From Streptomyces mobaraensis (GTDB lineage Bacteria; Actinomycetota; Actinomycetes; Streptomycetales; Streptomycetaceae), in assembly GCF_020099395.1 (NCBI RefSeq), contig NZ_CP083590.1, forward strand, positions 1,922,001-1,986,000: 64,000 nucleotides of DNA, in the 5' to 3' direction. Within the stretch, counting starts at the first letter, position 1, and each line of letters starts with the position of its first letter. Below the pieces are notes generated by a model. That model ran no database searches, was not told where the DNA came from, and was given only the letters and a program-made list of their open reading frames with translations. Shown here piece after piece: positions 10,761-20,121 of the stretch. The position numbers and the translations under genes were made by a program.

Positions 10761-12773
10761 TCAGCGATTCTCCGCCTTCGCCGCCGCGTCGATGGCCGCC
10801 AGCGAGCGGCGGACCTGATTGCGGTCGGTCGTGTACCAGAAATCCGGCAGGGAAGCGCGCAGGAACGACCCATAGCGCGCCGTCGCCAGCCTCGGATCGA
10901 GCACCGCCACCACACCCCGGTCGCCCGTGGCCCGTACGAGACGCCCCGCGCCCTGAGCCATCAGCAGGGCGGCGTGCGTCGCCGCGACGGACATGAAGCC
11001 GTTGCCTCCCGCCTGCTCGACCGCCCGCTGCCGGGCGCTCATCAGCGGGTCGTCCGGGCGCGGGAAGGGCACCCGGTCCATCACGACGAGCTGGCAGCTC
11101 GGCCCCGGCACGTCGACGCCCTGCCAGAGCGACAGCGTGCCGAACAGGCACGTCGCCGGATCCGCCGAGAAGTTCTTGATCAGCTCGCCGAGGGTGTCCT
11201 CGCCCTGGAGCAGGATCGGGGTGTCGAGCCGGCCGCGCAGCGCCTCGGCCGCGGCCTGCGCGGCGCGCATCGACGAGAAGAGGCCGAGCGTCCGCCCGCC
11301 CGCCGCCTCGATGAGCTCGGCCAGTTCGTCCAGCATGTCGGCCCGGCCGCCCTCCCGGCCGGGCTGGGAGAGGTGCTTGGCCACGTAGAGAATGCCCTGC
11401 CTGGGGTAGTCGAACGGCGAGCCGACGTCCACGCCCTTCCATTCGGGCAGGTCCTCGCCGGTGACGCCCTCGGGCGCGAGGCCGAGGGAGGCGCCGACCC
11501 CGTTGAAGTCGCCGCCGAGCTTGAGCGTGGCGGAGGTGAGCACCACGGACCGCTCGCTGAAGAGCTTCTCCCGCAGCAGCCCGGACACCGAGAGCGGGGC
11601 CACCCGCAGGGACGCGCCGTAGCGGTCGTGCCGCTCGAACCAGACGACGTCGTACTCGGAGCCCGCGACGATGCGCTCGGCGACGGCGTGCACGTTCTCC
11701 ACCGCGGCGAGCGCCTGCTTGCGGACGGCATCCTCATCCTGGACGGACTTGTCGCGCGTCGTACCGAGCGCCGAGACCACCGTCCGCGCCGCGTCCCGCA
11801 GCGACACCAGGGCGTAGCCGAGGTCCTCGGGGATCTCCTCCAGCCGCCCGGGCAGGGCCAGCTCCATCAGCCGTTCGAAGCTCTCGGCCGCCGTCTGGAG
11901 CGCGTCGGCGACCTTCTCGTCGACGAGCTTGGCCGCGCGCCGGACGGCCTGGTTGACGCGGCCCGGGGTGAGCTCACCGGTGGCCACGCCGGTGACGCGG
12001 GAGACCAGCTCGTGCGCCTCGTCGACGATCAGCACCTCGTGCTGGGGCAGCACCGGGGCGCCCTCGATGGCATCGATGGCGAGCAGGGCGTGGTTGGTGA
12101 CGACGACGTCGGCGAGCTTGGCACGCTCCCGGGCGGCCTCCGCGAAGCACTCGGCGCCATAGGCGCACTTCGAGGCGGACAGGCACTCCCGCGAGGTGAC
12201 CGAGACCTGGGACCAGGCGCGGTCGGAGACGCCGGGGGTGAGGTCGTCCCGGTCGCCGGTCTCCGTCTCGTCCGACCAGTCACGCAGGCGGAGCAGGTCC
12301 TTGCCGAGCTTGCTGGTGGGGGCCGCCGCCTCGAAGGGGTCGAAGAGGCCGTCTTCCTCCTCCTGCGGCACGCCCTCGTGCAGCCGGTGAAGGCAGAGGT
12401 AGTTGGAGCGGCCCTTGAGCATGGCGAACTCGGGGCGTCTGCGCAGCACCGGGTGCAGGGCCTCGACCGTCCGCGGCAGATCGCGCTCGACGAGCTGGCG
12501 CTGGAGCGCGAGCGTCGCGGTGGCGACCACCACCCGCTCCCCGTGCGCCAGGGCGGGCACGAGGTAGCCGAGGGACTTTCCGGTGCCCGTCCCCGCCTGG
12601 ACCAGCAGGTGCGAGGTGCCGTCGATGGCCTCGGCGACCGCCTCGGCCATGGCGACCTGGCCGGGGCGCTCGGTGCCGCCGACCGCGGTGACGGCCGCGT
12701 GCAGCAGGGCGGTGAGGTCGGGCCGGGACCCGGACGGGGCAGGAGACGCGGAGGGCGCGGGGGTGGCAGTCAT
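10761..12773 (-). CDS. dinG: ATP-dependent DNA helicase, DinG family (XPD-like)
   Basis: A 670-residue superfamily 2 helicase. Walker A is QAGTGTGKSLGYLVP near residue 60, the DEAH box is LIVDEAHELVSR, and motif VI near the C-terminus is QGAGRLVRATGDRG. Cysteines in NYLCLHRLHEG, RECLSASKCAYG and AECFAEAA are placed like the four iron-sulfur ligands of XPD/DinG helicases, so an Fe-S cluster is likely. These enzymes unwind 5'-3' and resolve R-loops and other blocked structures. The start is the ATG at 12771-12773 with GGAGAGG upstream. It lies 97 bp downstream of the siderophore synthetase on the same strand. I see no SOS box in front of it, so damage control is not shown. Confidence 0.93.
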   Translation of the reverse strand: MTATPAPSASPAPSGSRPDLTALLHAAVTAVGGTERPGQVAMAEAVAEAIDGTSHLLVQAGTGTGKSLGYLVPALAHGERVVVATATLALQRQLVERDLPRTVEALHPVLRRRPEFAMLKGRSNYLCLHRLHEGVPQEEEDGLFDPFEAAAPTSKLGKDLLRLRDWSDETETGDRDDLTPGVSDRAWSQVSVTSRECLSASKCAYGAECFAEAARERAKLADVVVTNHALLAIDAIEGAPVLPQHEVLIVDEAHELVSRVTGVATGELTPGRVNQAVRRAAKLVDEKVADALQTAAESFERLMELALPGRLEEIPEDLGYALVSLRDAARTVVSALGTTRDKSVQDEDAVRKQALAAVENVHAVAERIVAGSEYDVVWFERHDRYGASLRVAPLSVSGLLREKLFSERSVVLTSATLKLGGDFNGVGASLGLAPEGVTGEDLPEWKGVDVGSPFDYPRQGILYVAKHLSQPGREGGRADMLDELAELIEAAGGRTLGLFSSMRAAQAAAEALRGRLDTPILLQGEDTLGELIKNFSADPATCLFGTLSLWQGVDVPGPSCQLVVMDRVPFPRPDDPLMSARQRAVEQAGGNGFMSVAATHAALLMAQGAGRLVRATGDRGVVAVLDPRLATARYGSFLRASLPDFWYTTDRNQVRRSLAAIDAAAKAENR

Positions 12774-12870
12774 AGCCTCTCCAGCCTACGGGGCGGCACC
12801 GACATCGCGGGCCCCGTCCGCGACAACCGCCCCGCTCCGCCACCCGGCGCCACCGCTTTCACCGGCCTCA

Positions 12871-14874
12871 TCACCCCGGTCCCGCAAGGGGATTGGCGAT
12901 CGTGACGTACGGCGACCCGGCGCCGTCCCCGGCCAGCTCGCCCAGCAGGTGGGCCGGGCAGCGCAGGGTGGGCGCGTCCAGCAGGCGGCGCGGCAGGGAC
13001 GAGCGGGTGGCGCCCGGGCCGGTGGCGGCGCGGGCGAGGAACCGGCGGAAGGCCGCCAGCAGGATCCGTTCGTCGGCGAGCCGCCGGGAGCCGAACGCGC
13101 CGATCAGCCCGAGGACGTTGTCGCAGCCCAGGTGGTGGGCGAACCGCTCGTCGGCCGTCCCGTCCGGCAGGAACGCCTCCTCGTCGTCCGCGGCGAGCGC
13201 CGGCAGCCGGGCGGAGAGCGCGTCCCGCGCGGACTCCCGGAATCCGGCGTGCTGCCCGCCCCGGTACCGGCCGCCGACCGGCCAGCCGTCCCGGTCCAGC
13301 AGGACGAGGGTGTTCTGCTGGTGCGCCGCGAGGACGACGCCCGCCTCGCCGTCGAGCCAGAGCAGCGGGCGGACGACGGCCCCGAGGTAGCGCAGGAACC
13401 ATTCGACGGCGATCACCGGGACCGGACGGCCGGTGCGCCGGGCGAGCCCGTGGACGGTCTCGGCGAGCCGGGACGAGACGGCCGGGTGCCCGGCCGGTGC
13501 CGTACGGCCCGGCCAGGGGCGGAGCGAGGTCAGACCGGCGAGGCAGACGGCGTCGTCGCCGGGGCCGAAGGGGTTATGCCGGAGGACGGCGGCGAGGCCC
13601 GGCGCCGGGCCGCCGCCCGGGGCGTCGACGGCGAGCCAGGCGGGGTCGCGCACCACGTCGAAGCCCAGGCCGCCGGGGCAGGCCGCCCGCCAGCGCTCGG
13701 CGAGGCCGCCGCGCAGCAGCCGGTGCAGGGCGACGCCGCGGCGCAGCTCCGCTCGGCTCGGCTCGCGGGTGCGTCCGGCGAGGCGTACGCCCAGCGCGAG
13801 CTTGATCATCACCGGGGCGTCGGGCCGGTGCACGGTGCGGACGGAGGAGGTCGGGTACCAGGGCGCGCCGTGCGGCCCCAGGTCGTGGAGCAGCCCGGCG
13901 TCGAGGAGTGCGGCGACGGCGGGACGGCAGCGGACGTCGCGGGCCTGCCAGGGGTGGAGGGGCAGCGGCACGGTGTCGGGCGGGAGGCACGGCCCGGGTT
14001 CCGCGGGGAGGAGGCGGGCCGCCAGGGTCGCCGCCTCGACGGGCCGGCCGCGTTCCGTCCAGGCCGAGTCGGCGGCCAGGACGGACCGGTGGACGGCCAG
14101 CCAGTGCAGCGGGAAGCCGCCGCGGCACTCGGGGGCGTAGCGCGGGGACTCGGCGGCGGAGAAGCCCTCGCGGCTCTGCGGCGCGGGGTGCCAGGGGTGG
14201 CCCAGGAACGACGCCTGCTCCCCGTGCAGGAAGAGGGCGTCGTCGGCGGGGTCGGCCGGGCGGGCCCGGCGCTCCCCGACGAGGACCGCCGTCCTGCGGA
14301 CGGAGTCGGCGACCCGGCCGACCAACGCGGCGAGGCCGGCCGCGCTCCCCCGGCCCCCACGGTGCGCCGCCTCCCGGCCGAGCAGCGCGGCCAGGGTGAC
14401 GGCGTCCAGGGCGGGGGCGCCGTCCGGGGCGTTCAGCAGCGCCGGGGCACCGAACCGGTGCCGCCCGGTGGCCGACCAGTAGCGGACGGGGACGTGGAGG
14501 ACGTTCCCGTCGGTGGCGAGCGGCAGTTGGAGGCAGGGGCCCGGCGGCCGGTCGACGTCGTGCTCGCGCACCCAGCAGCGCAAGAGGGCGTCGACGGCGG
14601 CGCTGTCGGCGGCGGTCGCGGGGTCGGGGTGGTCGAGGGGGTCGGGGTGACAGAAGGGGCCGAGGGTGTCGGTGGGGGCGCAGGGGTCGGCGGGGGTGTC
14701 GGGAGCCGTCCGTGACCGGTCACCGTTGGGCGGTACCGGTGGTACGGGCGGTAGGGGTGGTACCGGTGGGACTGGCGCTACGGAACGGGGTGCGACCGGC
14801 ACGGCGCCCGGGCGGCGCGGGGCCTCGGGTGCGCGAGGAGCGGGGGTCGTCGGCGTGGCGGGGCGTACGTTCAT
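12871..14874 (-). CDS. IucA/IucC family siderophore synthetase
   Basis: A 667-residue NRPS-independent siderophore synthetase homologue, an enzyme class that ligates a carboxylic acid to an amine or hydroxamate using ATP. Characteristic blocks are LPLHPWQARDV, YPTSSVRTVHRP, APVMIKLALGVRL and, for the metal/nucleotide site, VIAVEWFLRYLGAVVRPLLW; the C-terminus ends with the FhuF-like segment and a terminal VTIANPLAGPG. The N-terminus carries an unusual Pro/Val-rich low-complexity stretch (about residues 25-50, VPPVPPLPPVPPVPP), so the true start may be later; an ATG at 14872-14874 is used here although its ribosome site is weak. The preceding lysine-less aminotransferase ends 21 bp upstream, so the two are probably translated together. 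No iron box was found. The product is unknown. Confidence 0.88.
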   Translation of the reverse strand: MNVRPATPTTPAPRAPEAPRRPGAVPVAPRSVAPVPPVPPLPPVPPVPPNGDRSRTAPDTPADPCAPTDTLGPFCHPDPLDHPDPATAADSAAVDALLRCWVREHDVDRPPGPCLQLPLATDGNVLHVPVRYWSATGRHRFGAPALLNAPDGAPALDAVTLAALLGREAAHRGGRGSAAGLAALVGRVADSVRRTAVLVGERRARPADPADDALFLHGEQASFLGHPWHPAPQSREGFSAAESPRYAPECRGGFPLHWLAVHRSVLAADSAWTERGRPVEAATLAARLLPAEPGPCLPPDTVPLPLHPWQARDVRCRPAVAALLDAGLLHDLGPHGAPWYPTSSVRTVHRPDAPVMIKLALGVRLAGRTREPSRAELRRGVALHRLLRGGLAERWRAACPGGLGFDVVRDPAWLAVDAPGGGPAPGLAAVLRHNPFGPGDDAVCLAGLTSLRPWPGRTAPAGHPAVSSRLAETVHGLARRTGRPVPVIAVEWFLRYLGAVVRPLLWLDGEAGVVLAAHQQNTLVLLDRDGWPVGGRYRGGQHAGFRESARDALSARLPALAADDEEAFLPDGTADERFAHHLGCDNVLGLIGAFGSRRLADERILLAAFRRFLARAATGPGATRSSLPRRLLDAPTLRCPAHLLGELAGDGAGSPYVTIANPLAGPG

Positions 14875-14895: not shown

Positions 14896-16914
14896 TCAGG
14901 CCGGGGCCGCGCCTGCCTCCTTCCGTGGGGTGGCGGGCTTCCGTGAGCCGGCGGACAGCCCCGGGACAGCGGCTCGCCGGGCGGATCCCGGCGGCACCTC
15001 TTTCCCTTCCGGCACGGGGCCGCCGTGCGCGTCGGGCGCTGTGCCCGCCGGAGCGGAGGGCGCGAAGGTTTCGGCCGCTTCCCGGAGGGGCGCATCGTGC
15101 TCCCCGGATACCTCACCCGGCCCGGCCGTGGTGGTACCGCCGGCCACGGGGTCGGTGACCGCCGTCGCCACCGGGCGCGGACCACGCCGATCGGAGGCTC
15201 CCCGCGCCGGCGTGGCGGCTCCGGCTGCCACCGGATCGGCGACCGGCGTCGTCAACGGGCGTGGACCGAGCCGATCGGAGGCTCCCCGCGCCGGCGTGAC
15301 CGCTCCGACTGCCACCGGATCGGCGACCGGCGTCGTCACCGGACGTGGTCCACGCCGACCGGACGCTCCCCGGGCCGACGTGGCCGCTCCGACTGCCACC
15401 GGATCAGCGACCGCCGTCGCCACCGGACACGGACCACGCCGACCGGAGGCTTCCAGCACCGGCGTAGGGGCTCCGGCTGCCGCCACGTCGGCGGCCGTCG
15501 GCGTGACTGCGGCGAGTCCGCGCCGTTCGGGCGCCCCCGGCACCGTCCCTGTGGGAGCCGTGGAGGTGGCTCGGGCCGGAGCCGGAGCCGGGGCCGGGGG
15601 CGCGGCCGGGAGGCCGGAGCGCGCGGCGGCGACCGCCACCGGTACTCCCGCCCGCGAGCCCCCGCTCACGGCGCCGACCGCGTCGGTGAAGCGGTCGAGT
15701 ACGGCTTCCGCCTGTTCGTCGGTGAGGGTGAGGGGCGGCAGGAGGCGCAGCAGGCGGGGCTCGTCGTCGTCCGCTCCGACGAGGAGGCCGCGGCGGAGGC
15801 AGGCGCGGCGGACCGCCTCGGCCGCGGTGGCGTCGGCGCAGGTGACGCCCAGCAGTAGGCCGCGGCCGTGGACGCCGGTGACCGGGTCGCGGCCGGCGAC
15901 GGCCCGGCGGAGCCGGGCGAGCATCCGCGCGCCCAGGGCCGCGGCCCGTGGGGCCAGGCCGTTGTCCCGGATGTGGCGCAGGGTGGCCGCGCCGGCCGCC
16001 ATGGCCAGCCGGTTGCCGTGGGCGTCCCGCTCCGGGAGGGCGGCGGGCACGTCGGCGCCGTGGACGAGGAGGGCGAGCGGCAGCCCGCCGCCGATCGCGC
16101 CGGCCAGGACCATGACGTCGGGGACGCGGCCGGTGTGCTGCACGTCCCAGAAGGCGCCGGTCCGGCCGGGGCCGGTGCGCGTCTCGTCGGCGACGAGGAG
16201 GGTACGGTCGCGGGCTCCGGGGACGGTTCCGGCCGGGCCTGGGCCCTCCGCGTGGGAGGAGGCCGGCGCACCGACTCCTCTGCCGGGCACCGCCCCGGCG
16301 AGGCCGCCACCGCCGAGCACCCGGGCCGCGGCGGCGTCGCGGTCCGGGTGGTCCCCTCCCCCGTCTCCGCCGGGCGCGACCCCCGGGCCACCGGCGACCG
16401 CCCGGTCCGCCGCGAGGTCGCACGCCCGGGCGAAGCCCTCAACGCCCGCGTCGCCGCATGTCCCGCCATCCCCTGTGCCCATCCGGCGTGAACCGTTGGC
16501 TCCCTCCCCGTCGCGAACGATCTCGACGAACCCCCCGGCGCCCGCCGCCAGCGCCCGCGCCGCCGCGAGCGCCGCCGCGCGGGTCGGTGGGCAGAAGTGG
16601 AGGCGGGCGTGGTCGGCCAGCCGGCCGGGGAGGGTGGCGCGCAGTTCGTCGGCGAAGACCTCGGCCGGCGGGACGCCGCGGGCGAGCGCGGAGCGGACGG
16701 CCTCGCGCACGACCGGGTGGTGGTGGCCGAGGACGAGCGCGCCGCCGCCGGGGAAGCAGTCGAGGTAGCGGCGGCCGTCGGCCGTCTCGACCGTCAGGCC
16801 CCGGGCGCGCGCGGGGACGAGGGGCAGCGGGCAGGCGTACGCGCGGGCGGGCGGCTCCGGGCGCGGGGCGCCGCGTCCCGCCGAGAGCACCGCCGGTGGC
16901 TGGGTCAAGGCCAC
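14896..16914 (-). CDS. class III aminotransferase homologue lacking the PLP lysine, with repeat-rich C-terminal tail
   Basis: A 672-residue protein whose first 430 residues resemble class III aminotransferases of the diaminobutyrate type: ETADGRRYLDCFPGGGALVLGHHHP near the N-terminus, ADETRTGPGRTGAFWDVQHTG with the cofactor-binding Asp, and GNRLAMAAGAATLRHIRDNGLA. At the Schiff-base position, where the family has (S/A)KAIGG, this protein has LAGAIGGGLP, that is Gly instead of Lys (codon GGC). The region that should hold the Tyr-His-Gly stacking motif and the EPVQGEGG block (about residues 130-235) is replaced by Gly/Ala/Asp-rich sequence. Beyond residue 430 is a low-complexity tail with four 28-residue repeats. 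It starts with GTG at 16912-16914, nine bases after AGGAGGAGG, and is the first gene of a unit with the siderophore synthetase. I infer a non-catalytic or scaffold role. Confidence 0.82.
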   Translation of the reverse strand: MALTQPPAVLSAGRGAPRPEPPARAYACPLPLVPARARGLTVETADGRRYLDCFPGGGALVLGHHHPVVREAVRSALARGVPPAEVFADELRATLPGRLADHARLHFCPPTRAAALAAARALAAGAGGFVEIVRDGEGANGSRRMGTGDGGTCGDAGVEGFARACDLAADRAVAGGPGVAPGGDGGGDHPDRDAAAARVLGGGGLAGAVPGRGVGAPASSHAEGPGPAGTVPGARDRTLLVADETRTGPGRTGAFWDVQHTGRVPDVMVLAGAIGGGLPLALLVHGADVPAALPERDAHGNRLAMAAGAATLRHIRDNGLAPRAAALGARMLARLRRAVAGRDPVTGVHGRGLLLGVTCADATAAEAVRRACLRRGLLVGADDDEPRLLRLLPPLTLTDEQAEAVLDRFTDAVGAVSGGSRAGVPVAVAAARSGLPAAPPAPAPAPARATSTAPTGTVPGAPERRGLAAVTPTAADVAAAGAPTPVLEASGRRGPCPVATAVADPVAVGAATSARGASGRRGPRPVTTPVADPVAVGAVTPARGASDRLGPRPLTTPVADPVAAGAATPARGASDRRGPRPVATAVTDPVAGGTTTAGPGEVSGEHDAPLREAAETFAPSAPAGTAPDAHGGPVPEGKEVPPGSARRAAVPGLSAGSRKPATPRKEAGAAPA
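15112..15447 (-). repeat. four 84-bp (28-residue) coding repeats in the aminotransferase-like gene
   Basis: The C-terminal tail contains four consecutive 28-residue units of the form S(G/D)RRGPRPVxTxVADPVAxG followed by AxTPARGA. Copies two to four are very alike and the first differs by a few residues, showing recent expansion. No domain family is recognised. Confidence 0.85.
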
Positions 16915-17103
16915 GACCTGTGTCCTCCTCCTGTTGAACGCCGGACGTCCCCCGTACGTACCAACGACGCCGGGCCGTCCGGATCACGGGTGCGCGGGAG
17001 GGGAAGGTGCGGCGCGTGCCACATCGCCGCCGGCGTGCCGCCCCGGCCCGTCCCCCGCGGCGGCGGCGTAGGGTGTCCCTGCCCCGCCACCGGGGCGGTG
17101 CAT

Positions 17104-17145
17104 GACAAGTCCGCGAGGACAAGTCCGCGCGGACACATCCGCGGA
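17104..17145. repeat. 14-bp direct repeats upstream of the secreted protease
   Basis: GACAAGTCCGCG occurs at 17104 and 17118, and a variant GACACATCCGCG at 17132, giving a 14-bp period. They end about 50 bp before the protease start codon, so they may be regulatory or part of its leader. Confidence 0.7.
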
Positions 17146-17194
17146 CGCGGACACGCACCCGCACATGTGTCACCGAACGGGGGAGAAACACTCC

Positions 17195-18403
17195 ATGTCA
17201 TCCCAACGCCCGCCCGTCGCCCGCCGGCGGGGGCCGCGCACCCTGGCCGCGGTCGCCGTCGCGTCCGTGCTGGCGCTGACCGCCGTCTGCGGTCCGTCCG
17301 ACGACGACGCGGCCGGTGGCGACAAGCCCACCGCGTCGGCGAGCTCCCAGGGCCTGGACGGGTTCAAGCTCCCCAAGGGGCTCACCCTCCAGGACCTGGA
17401 GAAGTGGAAGGGCGGCGCCTGGAAGAAGTGGGACAAGGACCGGTGGCTGCGGGAGGCCCGGGACTTCATCAACCCGATCATCGAGGGGCACTGGAAGCCC
17501 GACTCGATGAAGGACGCCCGATCCAGTGACAAGACCGTCAAGGACGCTCCGGGGACTCCCCCGGGCGGTTCGTCCCAGGGCGACCAGGGGGTCACCGACC
17601 CGGAGCCGCGGCCGGTGAAGGCCCGTGAGGTGAAGCGGCCGTACAGCGACAACGCCGCCCCGGTCGGCAAGGTCTTCTTCGACAGCCCCCAGGGCCACAT
17701 GGTCTGCTCGGCGACGGTCGTCAAGGACCCGGCACATCCGGGCAAGTCCAACATGGTGTGGACGGCGGGCCACTGCGTACACGCGGGCCAGAAGGGCGGC
17801 TGGTACCGCAACATCGCCTTCGTGCCCTCCTACAACAACCGGGGCCTGCCCGCCTCACAGGTCAACAGCGCGCCGGTGCAGCAGGTCGCGCCGTACGGCG
17901 TGTGGTGGGCGGACTGGGCGCAGACCTCGGGCCAGTGGATCGCCCAGGGCGCGTCCAGCGGCGGCGCGGGCGCCCCGTACGACTTCGCCGTGCTGCACGT
18001 GAAGCCGGAGCAGGGCTCGGGCAAGTCGCTGGAGGAGACCGTCGGCACCGCGCTGGCCGTGGACTTCGACGCCCCGCAGGTGAAGTCCATCTCCTCGATG
18101 GGCGCCTGGGGCTACCCGGCCGCGCCGCCCTTCGACGGGCAGCGGATGTACGACTGCATCGACCGCCCCGGGCGGCTCACCCTGGACAGCGCGCAGCCGA
18201 CGATGTACCGCATCGGCTGCACGATGACCGGCGGTTCCTCGGGCGGCGGCTGGTTCCGCGTCGGTCCGGGCGGCAAGGCGGTGCTGGTGTCCAACACCTC
18301 CGTCGGCCCGTCCGACAGCCGCTGGCTCGCCGGGCCGCACCTGGGCCCCGAGGCCAAGGGCATCTACCAGGCCGTCAGCAAGAAGTTCGCGGCCACGCGC
18401 TGA
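17195..18403 (+). CDS. secreted trypsin-like serine protease
   Basis: A 402-residue exported protein. Residues 1-35 form a signal (RRRGPRTLAAVAVASVLALTAVC), with a cysteine that is only a poor lipobox, so it may be secreted or lipid-anchored. After an acidic, flexible stretch the catalytic triad is clear: His in VWTAGHCVHAG, Asp in YDFAVLHVKPE and Ser in GCTMTGGSSGGGWF. This is the chymotrypsin/trypsin fold of peptidase family S1. The start is the ATG at 17195 with GGGGGAG upstream; an in-frame GTG/ATG further up would add residues lacking a signal. The natural substrate is not known. It is convergent with hflX and the two share a strong bidirectional terminator. Confidence 0.9.
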   Translation: MSSQRPPVARRRGPRTLAAVAVASVLALTAVCGPSDDDAAGGDKPTASASSQGLDGFKLPKGLTLQDLEKWKGGAWKKWDKDRWLREARDFINPIIEGHWKPDSMKDARSSDKTVKDAPGTPPGGSSQGDQGVTDPEPRPVKAREVKRPYSDNAAPVGKVFFDSPQGHMVCSATVVKDPAHPGKSNMVWTAGHCVHAGQKGGWYRNIAFVPSYNNRGLPASQVNSAPVQQVAPYGVWWADWAQTSGQWIAQGASSGGAGAPYDFAVLHVKPEQGSGKSLEETVGTALAVDFDAPQVKSISSMGAWGYPAAPPFDGQRMYDCIDRPGRLTLDSAQPTMYRIGCTMTGGSSGGGWFRVGPGGKAVLVSNTSVGPSDSRWLAGPHLGPEAKGIYQAVSKKFAATR

Positions 18404-18473: not shown

Positions 18474-19970
18474 TCAGGCGGCCTGGACGAACGGCCGCAG
18501 CTCCGCGGCCAGTTCCTCGTGCACCCGGGCCTTGACCAGGGTGCCCTCCGCCGTGTGCTCCTCGGAGAGGATCTCGCCCTCGGAGTGGATCCGGGCGGTC
18601 AGCGCGCCCTGGGTGTACGGCACCAGCGCCTTGACCTCGATCGCCGGGCGCGGCAGCCGCTCGTCGATCAGGGCGAGCAGCTCGTCGATGCCCTCACCGG
18701 AGCGGGCCGAGACCGCGATCGCGTTCCGCTCGACGCGCAGCAGGCGCTGCAGGACGAGCGGGTCGGCCGCGTCCGCCTTGTTGACGACGACGATCTCGGG
18801 CACGTCGAGCGCGCCCACGTCGCGGATCACCTCGCGGACCGCCGCGAGCTGCTCCTCCGGCGCCGGGTGCGAGCCGTCCACCACGTGCAGGATGAGGTCG
18901 GAGTCGCCGACCTCCTCCATGGTGGAGCGGAACGCCTCGACGAGGTGGTGCGGCAGGTGGCGGACGAAACCGACGGTGTCGGCCAGGGTGTAGAGCCGGC
19001 CGCCGGGCGTCTCGGCCCGCCGGACGGTCGGGTCCAGGGTGGCGAACAGCGAGTTCTCCACCAGGACACCGGCACCGGTGAGGCGGTTGAGCAGCGAGGA
19101 CTTTCCGGCATTGGTGTAGCCGGCGATGGCGACCGAGGGCACCTTGTTGCGGCGGCGCTCCTGGCGCTTGAGGTCGCGCCCGGTCTTCATCTCCGCGATC
19201 TCCCGGCGCATCCGCGCCATCTTCTCGCGGATCCGCCGCCGGTCGGTCTCGATCTTCGTCTCACCGGGACCACGGGTGGCCATGCCGCCGCCCGAGGAAC
19301 CGGAACCGCCGCCGCCCATCTGCCGGGACAGCGACTGGCCCCAGCCGCGCAGCCGGGGCAGCATGTACTGCATCTGCGCGAGGGAGACCTGCGCCTTGCC
19401 CTCACGGGACTTGGCGTGCTGGGCGAAGATGTCCAGGATCAGGGCGGTACGGTCGACCACCTTCACCTTGACGACGTCTTCCAGGTGGATGAGCTGGCCG
19501 GGGCTGAGCTCACCGTCGCAGACGACGGTGTCGGCGCCGGACTCCAGGACGATGTCCCGCAGCTCCTGGGCCTTGCCGGAGCCGATGTACGTGGCCGGGT
19601 CCGGCTTGTCGCGGCGCTGGACCACGCCGTCCAGGACCTGGGCGCCCGCGGTCTCCGCGAGCGCGGCCAGCTCCGCCAGGGAGTTCTCGGCGTCCCGCAC
19701 CGTGCCGGACGTCCAGACGCCGACCAGCACCACGCGCTCCAGGCGCAGCTGCCGGTACTCGACCTCGGTGACGTCCTCCAGCTCGGTGGACAGGCCCGCG
19801 ACGCGGCGCAGTGCCGCGCGCTCGGAGCGGTCGTACTGGTCCCCGTCCCGCTCCCCGTCGATCTCGTGGCTCCAGGCGACGTCCTCTTCCATCAGGGCGT
19901 CGGCCCGAAGGCTCTCCGGGAGGCTCTGCCGGTCCTGCCGGTCCTGGGGAAGGGAAGAAGTGGAGGTCAT
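18474..19970 (-). CDS. hflX: ribosome-associated GTPase HflX
   Basis: HflX is a conserved GTPase that splits or rescues stalled ribosomes under stress. The 498-residue protein has the N-terminal HflX domain (LVGVWTSGTVRDAENSLAEL, ATYIGSGKAQEL), the linker with a glycine-rich insert (GGGGSGSSGGGMATRGPGETK) and the G domain: G1 GYTNAGKSSLLNRLTG, G3 DTVGFVRHLPH and G4 VVNKADAADP. A C-terminal region ends at RPFVQAA. The start is the ATG at 19968-19970, with AAAGGAT upstream; the frame runs further up, but those residues are not conserved-looking. It lies 150 bp downstream of the M1 aminopeptidase gene. Confidence 0.96.
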   Translation of the reverse strand: MTSTSSLPQDRQDRQSLPESLRADALMEEDVAWSHEIDGERDGDQYDRSERAALRRVAGLSTELEDVTEVEYRQLRLERVVLVGVWTSGTVRDAENSLAELAALAETAGAQVLDGVVQRRDKPDPATYIGSGKAQELRDIVLESGADTVVCDGELSPGQLIHLEDVVKVKVVDRTALILDIFAQHAKSREGKAQVSLAQMQYMLPRLRGWGQSLSRQMGGGGSGSSGGGMATRGPGETKIETDRRRIREKMARMRREIAEMKTGRDLKRQERRRNKVPSVAIAGYTNAGKSSLLNRLTGAGVLVENSLFATLDPTVRRAETPGGRLYTLADTVGFVRHLPHHLVEAFRSTMEEVGDSDLILHVVDGSHPAPEEQLAAVREVIRDVGALDVPEIVVVNKADAADPLVLQRLLRVERNAIAVSARSGEGIDELLALIDERLPRPAIEVKALVPYTQGALTARIHSEGEILSEEHTAEGTLVKARVHEELAAELRPFVQAA

Positions 19971-20121
19971 GTGATCCTTTGCTTCGTCGGGTCGTGCTGG
20001 GCGCACGGTGGTGTCCCCGGGCGGGGACCCACATGTCGACAACGCCGGACGCTTCCCGGTGATTCCCGGGCCCGCGCCGCGGCGGCCGACCCGCAAATGG
20101 TCCCATGCCGCGCGGGGGCCG

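Follow-up and report, generated by a model that had tools for sequence, protein, structure and literature searches.

The window, a stretch of 64,000 nucleotides of Streptomyces mobaraensis DNA, carries on its reverse strand an open reading frame (14896..16914) that encodes a 672-residue homologue of class III (diaminobutyrate-type) aminotransferases without the catalytic lysine, as seen from the frame itself, profile matches and alignment. The frame starts with GTG, and AGGAGGA lies immediately 5' of it. On the same strand it is followed by a gene for an IucA/IucC-type NIS synthetase (12871..14874; PF04183 and PF06276), by a short junction (12774..12870; 113 bp between aligned ends) at the site where other species hold csbC and csbD, and by a syntenic gene for a DinG-type helicase (10761..12773; Helicase_C_2 and DEAD). 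On the other side lie a forward-strand gene of 433 codons that takes the position of orf1 and has no Pfam match (17102..18403) and a syntenic reverse-strand gene for an HflX-like GTPase (18474..20096; GTP-bdg_N, GTP-bdg_M, MMR_HSR1 and HflX_C). The flanking genes are nearest to those of the named loci of three Streptomyces species, S. hiroshimensis, S. mashuensis and S. griseocarneus.

This is the layout of the csb cryptic siderophore cluster of Streptomyces sp. YIM 121038, for which excerpts of the original report give the gene order orf1, csbA, csbB, csbC, csbD, dinG and lexA and describe csbA as a diaminobutyrate transaminase, csbB as IucA, csbC as an IucB-like N-acyltransferase and csbD as IucC; according to the same excerpts, the csb product was not found by LC-MS and disruption of csbC failed (PMC9600172). 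As in the described part of that cluster, the window has orf1, csbA, csbB and dinG in the same order with lexA beyond, the aminotransferase homologue lying between orf1 and dinG and 5' of csbB. By synteny, the frame is csbA of the published cluster. Unlike the cluster as excerpted from YIM 121038, however, the window and the genome of a sister species (G067) hold neither csbC nor csbD, and conserved motifs of both csbA and csbB are altered. In an intact orthologous locus (L053), two genes between csbB and dinG match the GNAT acetyltransferase domain and IucA_IucC together with FhuF, respectively; at the loci of the window and G067 both csbC and csbD are lacking, and csbB almost abuts dinG. Relocation of the two genes to another part of the genome was considered and rejected: in whole-genome searches of both species, run without a positive-control genome, csbC had no match and csbD only weak partial ones, and the same query sequences did match other loci in the locus comparisons. 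Separately, csbC is matchless in the window genome (G000) and in G067, and its disruption failed in YIM 121038 according to the excerpts cited above (PMC9600172).

Within CsbA, Pfam Aminotran_3 (PF00202) is matched with 135.5 bits (cut-off 30.5), split over two stretches. In NCBIfam, the top three matches are models of diaminobutyrate transaminases, the kind of enzyme that TIGR00709 describes; the score against TIGR00709, however, is 140.1 bits, below the curated cut-off of 401.6 (the intact orthologue at L053 reaches 472.1), and unlike that family window CsbA has no catalytic lysine. Where orthologues show the Schiff-base lysine of SKAIGG, residue 272 is glycine (codon GGC; 16099..16101, reverse strand, as for all csbA features below), and the surrounding LAGAIGGGLP is identical in G067. 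The Asp-Glu pair (D243 and E244; 16183..16188) and the GRTGAF block are retained in the alignment, and the aspartate of the pair is presumably the residue that binds the PLP pyridine. Asp-Glu is present in all 26 departing csbA rows listed, and the other 112 of the 138 rows keep it by the scoring rule.

Three further parts of the protein can be told apart. The N-terminal block (residues 1-105; 16600..16914) is under the strongest constraint relative to G067. The central segment (residues 126-236; 16207..16539), which replaces the YHG and EPVQGEGG blocks, is fast-evolving with in-frame indels; neither motif is recognisable there in the three frames of the reverse strand, and in the alignment the (A)GTFRGN loop has shrunk to A---HGN. 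Compensated frameshifts within the segment were ruled out, as no other frame of the strand brings back homology. The C-terminal tail (residues 426-672, 247 residues; 14899..15639) is of low complexity and contains an 84-bp unit (28 codons) in four tandem, in-frame copies (15143..15481), the 84-bp spacing being detectable over 15116-15535. Third-position GC falls from 0.90-1.0 in bins of the core to 0.80-0.93 in those of the central segment and 0.68-0.80 in those of the tail, the last covering the six bins from residue 441 onward. The 84-bp copies lengthen the tail in the window; that of G067, whose CsbA has 505 residues, is much shorter. Nowhere is the window frame broken by a frameshift or stop, so that csbA does not look like a dead pseudogene. 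The preliminary description of this DNA had named the replacement of the Schiff-base lysine by glycine, the missing YHG and EPVQGEGG motifs, the retained Asp-Glu and GRTGAF blocks, a single long frame with a good ribosome site and the adjoining IucA/IucC synthetase, and all of these are borne out by the frames, alignments and profiles above. The shrunken (A)GTFRGN loop, the repeat-bearing tail, the changed synthetase motifs and the lack of csbC and csbD go beyond that description.

G067 is the relative against which selection was assessed: DNA identity is 94% over a 2-kb query that spans the csbA start and the adjoining upstream gene, and protein identity to the window is 98.7% for dinG and 97% for orf1. 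It also bears on whether sequencing or assembly has turned a normal csbA into a frameshifted or chimeric one in the window. The region is high in GC and repetitive, which would favour such an artefact, but this separate genome carries the identical lysine-less sequence and the other frames fail to restore the central block; a sequencing error is therefore rejected, and an artefact of any kind is vanishingly improbable.

Overall, dN/dS of csbA between the two species is 0.66. Specifically, it is 0.17 in residues 1-105, where 7 synonymous and 3 nonsynonymous changes differ from neutrality (Fisher p 0.009, uncorrected), 0.62 in residues 126-236, 0.64 in residues 237-425 (p 0.20, not distinct from neutrality) and 0.73 in the tail. 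The corresponding values are 0.25 for residues 73-667 of csbB (0.32 for the whole gene), 0.06 for dinG, 0.16 for orf1 and 0.33 for hflX. Each of the six csbA indels within residues 1-426 has a length divisible by 3; intergenic indels measure 5, 1 and 1 nt, with longer ones at both alignment edges, and those in the csbA tail are mixed and sum to 552, a multiple of 3. The frame of the eroded window csbA and part of its sequence appear to be still under weak purifying selection. Both species have lost 74 of the 203 conserved csbA columns, and at 52 of these the new residue is identical; a further 10 are lost in the window alone and 9 in G067 alone. These 19 private losses compare with 24.7 expected at the rate of the stem, which is no significant slowing, and a history in which the loss was completed and the result then conserved in the window lineage was rejected on this ground. 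In csbB, the window and G067 share 26 losses, 22 of them with the same new residue.

Across the genus, the intact form of csbA prevails. In 80 genomes drawn evenly, with the window's own genome excluded, csbA is at the locus in 67 and the lysine is kept in 65 of these; at the scored positions, 57 of the 67 show no departure, five show one and five at least two. The preliminary description had considered that orthologues in the same setting might share the lysine-less form, and this is not what the alignment gives: in most species sampled, the orthologue at the same position has KAIGG and intact central motifs, the very outcome that the description had named as a refutation of its reading. In six genomes that have csbB, csbA is absent and the interval from orf1 to csbB is too short to contain it (G013, G047, G053, G059, G060 and G063), one has a csbA fragment next to csbB (G084), two have neither gene (G043 and G048), and the remaining four (G014, G066, G080 and G089) were not assigned to a class. 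In G013, no csbA match above 35% identity occurs beyond the csb locus among the matches listed; for the other genomes without csbA, absence means absence at the csb locus.

A further set of 80 named loci was picked by similarity to the window and is therefore not an even sample. Its departures include S. tibetensis (Lys to Asp), S. lomondensis (Lys to Gln), S. djakartensis, S. viridiviolaceus, S. panaciradicis, S. paradoxus and others. The lysine is replaced by glycine in the window and G067, by arginine in G002 and G319, and by aspartate or glutamine elsewhere, the glycine being confined to the window and G067 among 138 rows. On a FastTree tree of 137 rows, built from the codons of hflX, dinG and csbB, loss of the lysine is found in 6 rows and requires at least 5 changes, and erosion, defined as at least two departures at the scored csbA positions, is found in 18 rows and requires 12 changes. 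Hand-picked eroded pairs in other clades (n=8) have a csbA dN/dS of 0.24-0.37 versus 0.12-0.27 in intact pairs (n=10). At five loci (L029, L045, L066, L077 and L230) the losses centre on the central block (Fisher p <1e-5 each), and 86-98% of the conserved N-terminal and C-domain columns are retained; over the 10 loci tested for this focus, it is strong in these five, weak in two and without significance in three.

Erosion of csbA is likely, though not settled, to be linked to the absence of csbD in the loci compared. Among 98 loci with csbB to dinG in one piece, erosion occurs at 15 of the 46 that lack csbD and at none of the 52 that have it (Fisher p 2.8e-6). Sixteen further genomes were fetched as a test, 13 of which were added to the csbD table, and the enlarged table gives erosion at 1 of 60 loci with csbD and at 15 of 51 without (Fisher p 4e-5). 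The single counter-example, G002, is eroded and has arginine in place of the lysine, yet retains csbD, which rules out that erosion strictly needs the loss of csbD. Because rows of the table are not independent, origins were counted on the tree. With irreversible loss, csbD-less branches account for 44% of the branch length at risk yet carry 11 of 12 erosion origins (p 0.0009); with reversible parsimony, it is 6 of 7 (p 0.055). In an independent-pairs test of 5 pairs, a mean of 1.3 differ in the expected way, 0.1 in the opposite way and 3.6 not at all. Additionally, 27 of the 46 csbD-less loci have an intact csbA, and csbD is present at 3 of 7 loci without intact csbA.

The synthetase gene follows a course of its own. 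As a reference we used 140 CsbB columns that are at least 98% conserved across 125 other loci; 123 of these loci match at least 135 columns, the exceptions (L043 and L020) being short. Loci with eroded csbA outside the window lineage (n=14) keep 138-140 of the 140 columns, and 7 genomes without intact csbA keep 136-140, so csbA can be eroded or missing with csbB still conserved. The six genomes with a conserved csbB and no csbA at the locus are those of loci L180, L159, L205, L192, L199 and L203. The window and G067 keep 111 columns each, that is, 29 departures, among them changes to the lysine of HPxHPxPK, ITN, the glutamate of EAHQQN, and YRDNQGYY. Residues matching R305 and H444 of AcsD, counted along the AcsD alignment, are retained. 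Excerpts of a study of AcsD describe R305 as crucial for adenylation, the E442D variant as inactive and E442Q as active only with hydroxylamine (PMC3323832). Since IucA itself has no glutamate at the place aligned with AcsD E442, we only infer that window CsbB has lost its activity. Near the start of csbB, 18-bp repeats occupy 14620-14763 of the window, and the Pro/Val-rich N-terminus there is unlike that of G067.

Taken together, these observations make it probable that a biosynthetic pathway is being dismantled stepwise and has been caught part-way, the window csbA belonging to a lineage whose cluster has come down to csbA and csbB. CsbA would once have made an amine precursor for the CsbB and CsbD synthetases; with the loss of later steps, selection on its PLP chemistry would have ceased. 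Loss of csbD would come first and erosion of csbA after it, an order suggested by their association, and in the window lineage dismantling would have advanced further, as far as csbB. CsbA chemistry appears to be dispensable in many lineages, most often in those without csbD. What constraint remains on csbA could be due to recency, to a residual non-catalytic role or to the passage of ribosomes to the csbB start. The preliminary description had proposed a conserved, non-catalytic partner of the synthetase, such as a scaffold. A translated-looking, lysine-less protein that is found in the sister species and under some constraint stands; a conserved scaffold for the synthetase does not. An obligate role of this kind is unlikely, and we prefer dismantling, because CsbB keeps 136-140 of its 140 columns where csbA is absent or a fragment, because the losses are scattered, varied in their replacements and tied to the absence of csbD, and because the window csbB has lost motifs itself. 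Several observations run against dismantling, namely the in-frame indels, the N-terminal dN/dS of 0.17, the values of 0.24-0.37 in eroded pairs and of 0.25 in csbB, the focus of losses on the central block, the presence of csbD in G002, the p of 0.055 for the csbD link under reversible parsimony and the independent pairs, most of which do not differ in erosion.

If eroded CsbA persists with its N- and C-terminal parts as a protein that, without catalysis, partners or regulates CsbB or something else, the intact frame, dN/dS below 1 after erosion, the focus on the central block at the five loci above and the state common to G067 are all accounted for; we nevertheless consider such a retained pseudoenzyme doubtful, as six genomes have a conserved csbB without csbA at the locus, replacement residues differ, erosion is tied to csbD absence, and in the window lineage csbB is altered and csbA losses have not slowed significantly. 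It is unlikely, too, that CsbA and CsbB have become a non-catalytic pair with a new, non-siderophore function in the window lineage, a thought suggested by the fact that most of their losses predate the split from G067, often to the same residue, and by the csbB dN/dS of 0.25. The csbA frame might instead be kept as a leader for translation up to the csbB start, its protein being useless. Counted from the first nucleotide of the csbA stop codon, the csbB ATG follows after 24 nt (window) or 23 nt (G067), the DNA directly 5' of csbB is alike in both, the window frame stays open for 278 codons beyond the RLLPP block up to csbB, and a possible csbB start at -4 to +50 nt is present in 90 of the 159 loci without a fusion (same-genome copies included). 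Such coupling is quite unlikely to be the explanation: it leaves the amino-acid conservation in residues 1-105 unexplained, about 9% of shuffles leave the 246-codon tail open, 69 of the 159 loci have no csbB start so near (counting candidate starts only), and csbB is kept in species without csbA.

The window locus can be set beside two further known systems. SCO5799-SCO5801 of S. coelicolor is probably the locus orthologous to csb. Excerpts of four papers list it as an aminotransferase and putative siderophore locus or table member (PMC3610822, PMC7324645, PMC3224560 and PMC6414726), a description that is like that of csb. In the literature we consulted, mostly papers that need no subscription, no report of csbA erosion was found under pseudoenzyme-type aminotransferases in this setting or under the csb gene names. 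LCB1 is the fixed partner of the homologous LCB2; in contrast, the lysine-less state of csbA is scattered, and the neighbour CsbB is of an unrelated enzyme class. According to an excerpt on serine palmitoyltransferase, its subunit LCB1 is a homologue of PLP enzymes that is itself not PLP-dependent (PMC2748086), and in this it is like window CsbA, a PLP-enzyme homologue apparently without cofactor function.

Because the active site of CsbA erodes mostly where csbD is absent, the pattern offers genetic guidance on the purpose of CsbA, namely a step that would be needed when CsbD acts. In turn, csbB stays conserved in species that lack csbA or csbD, suggesting a separate function for CsbB. In addition, siderophore-cluster calls in these genomes should be read with caution, as they may cover loci with incomplete enzymes.

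The arrangement of the locus itself is unusual in two genomes. In G012, the best matches of orf1, csbA and csbB lie at three distant chromosome sites and not at the usual single locus. In G023 (L014 and L118), csbA and csbB are read in one open frame and are possibly fused; as this genome alone has one frame spanning both, fusion was rejected as a common arrangement.
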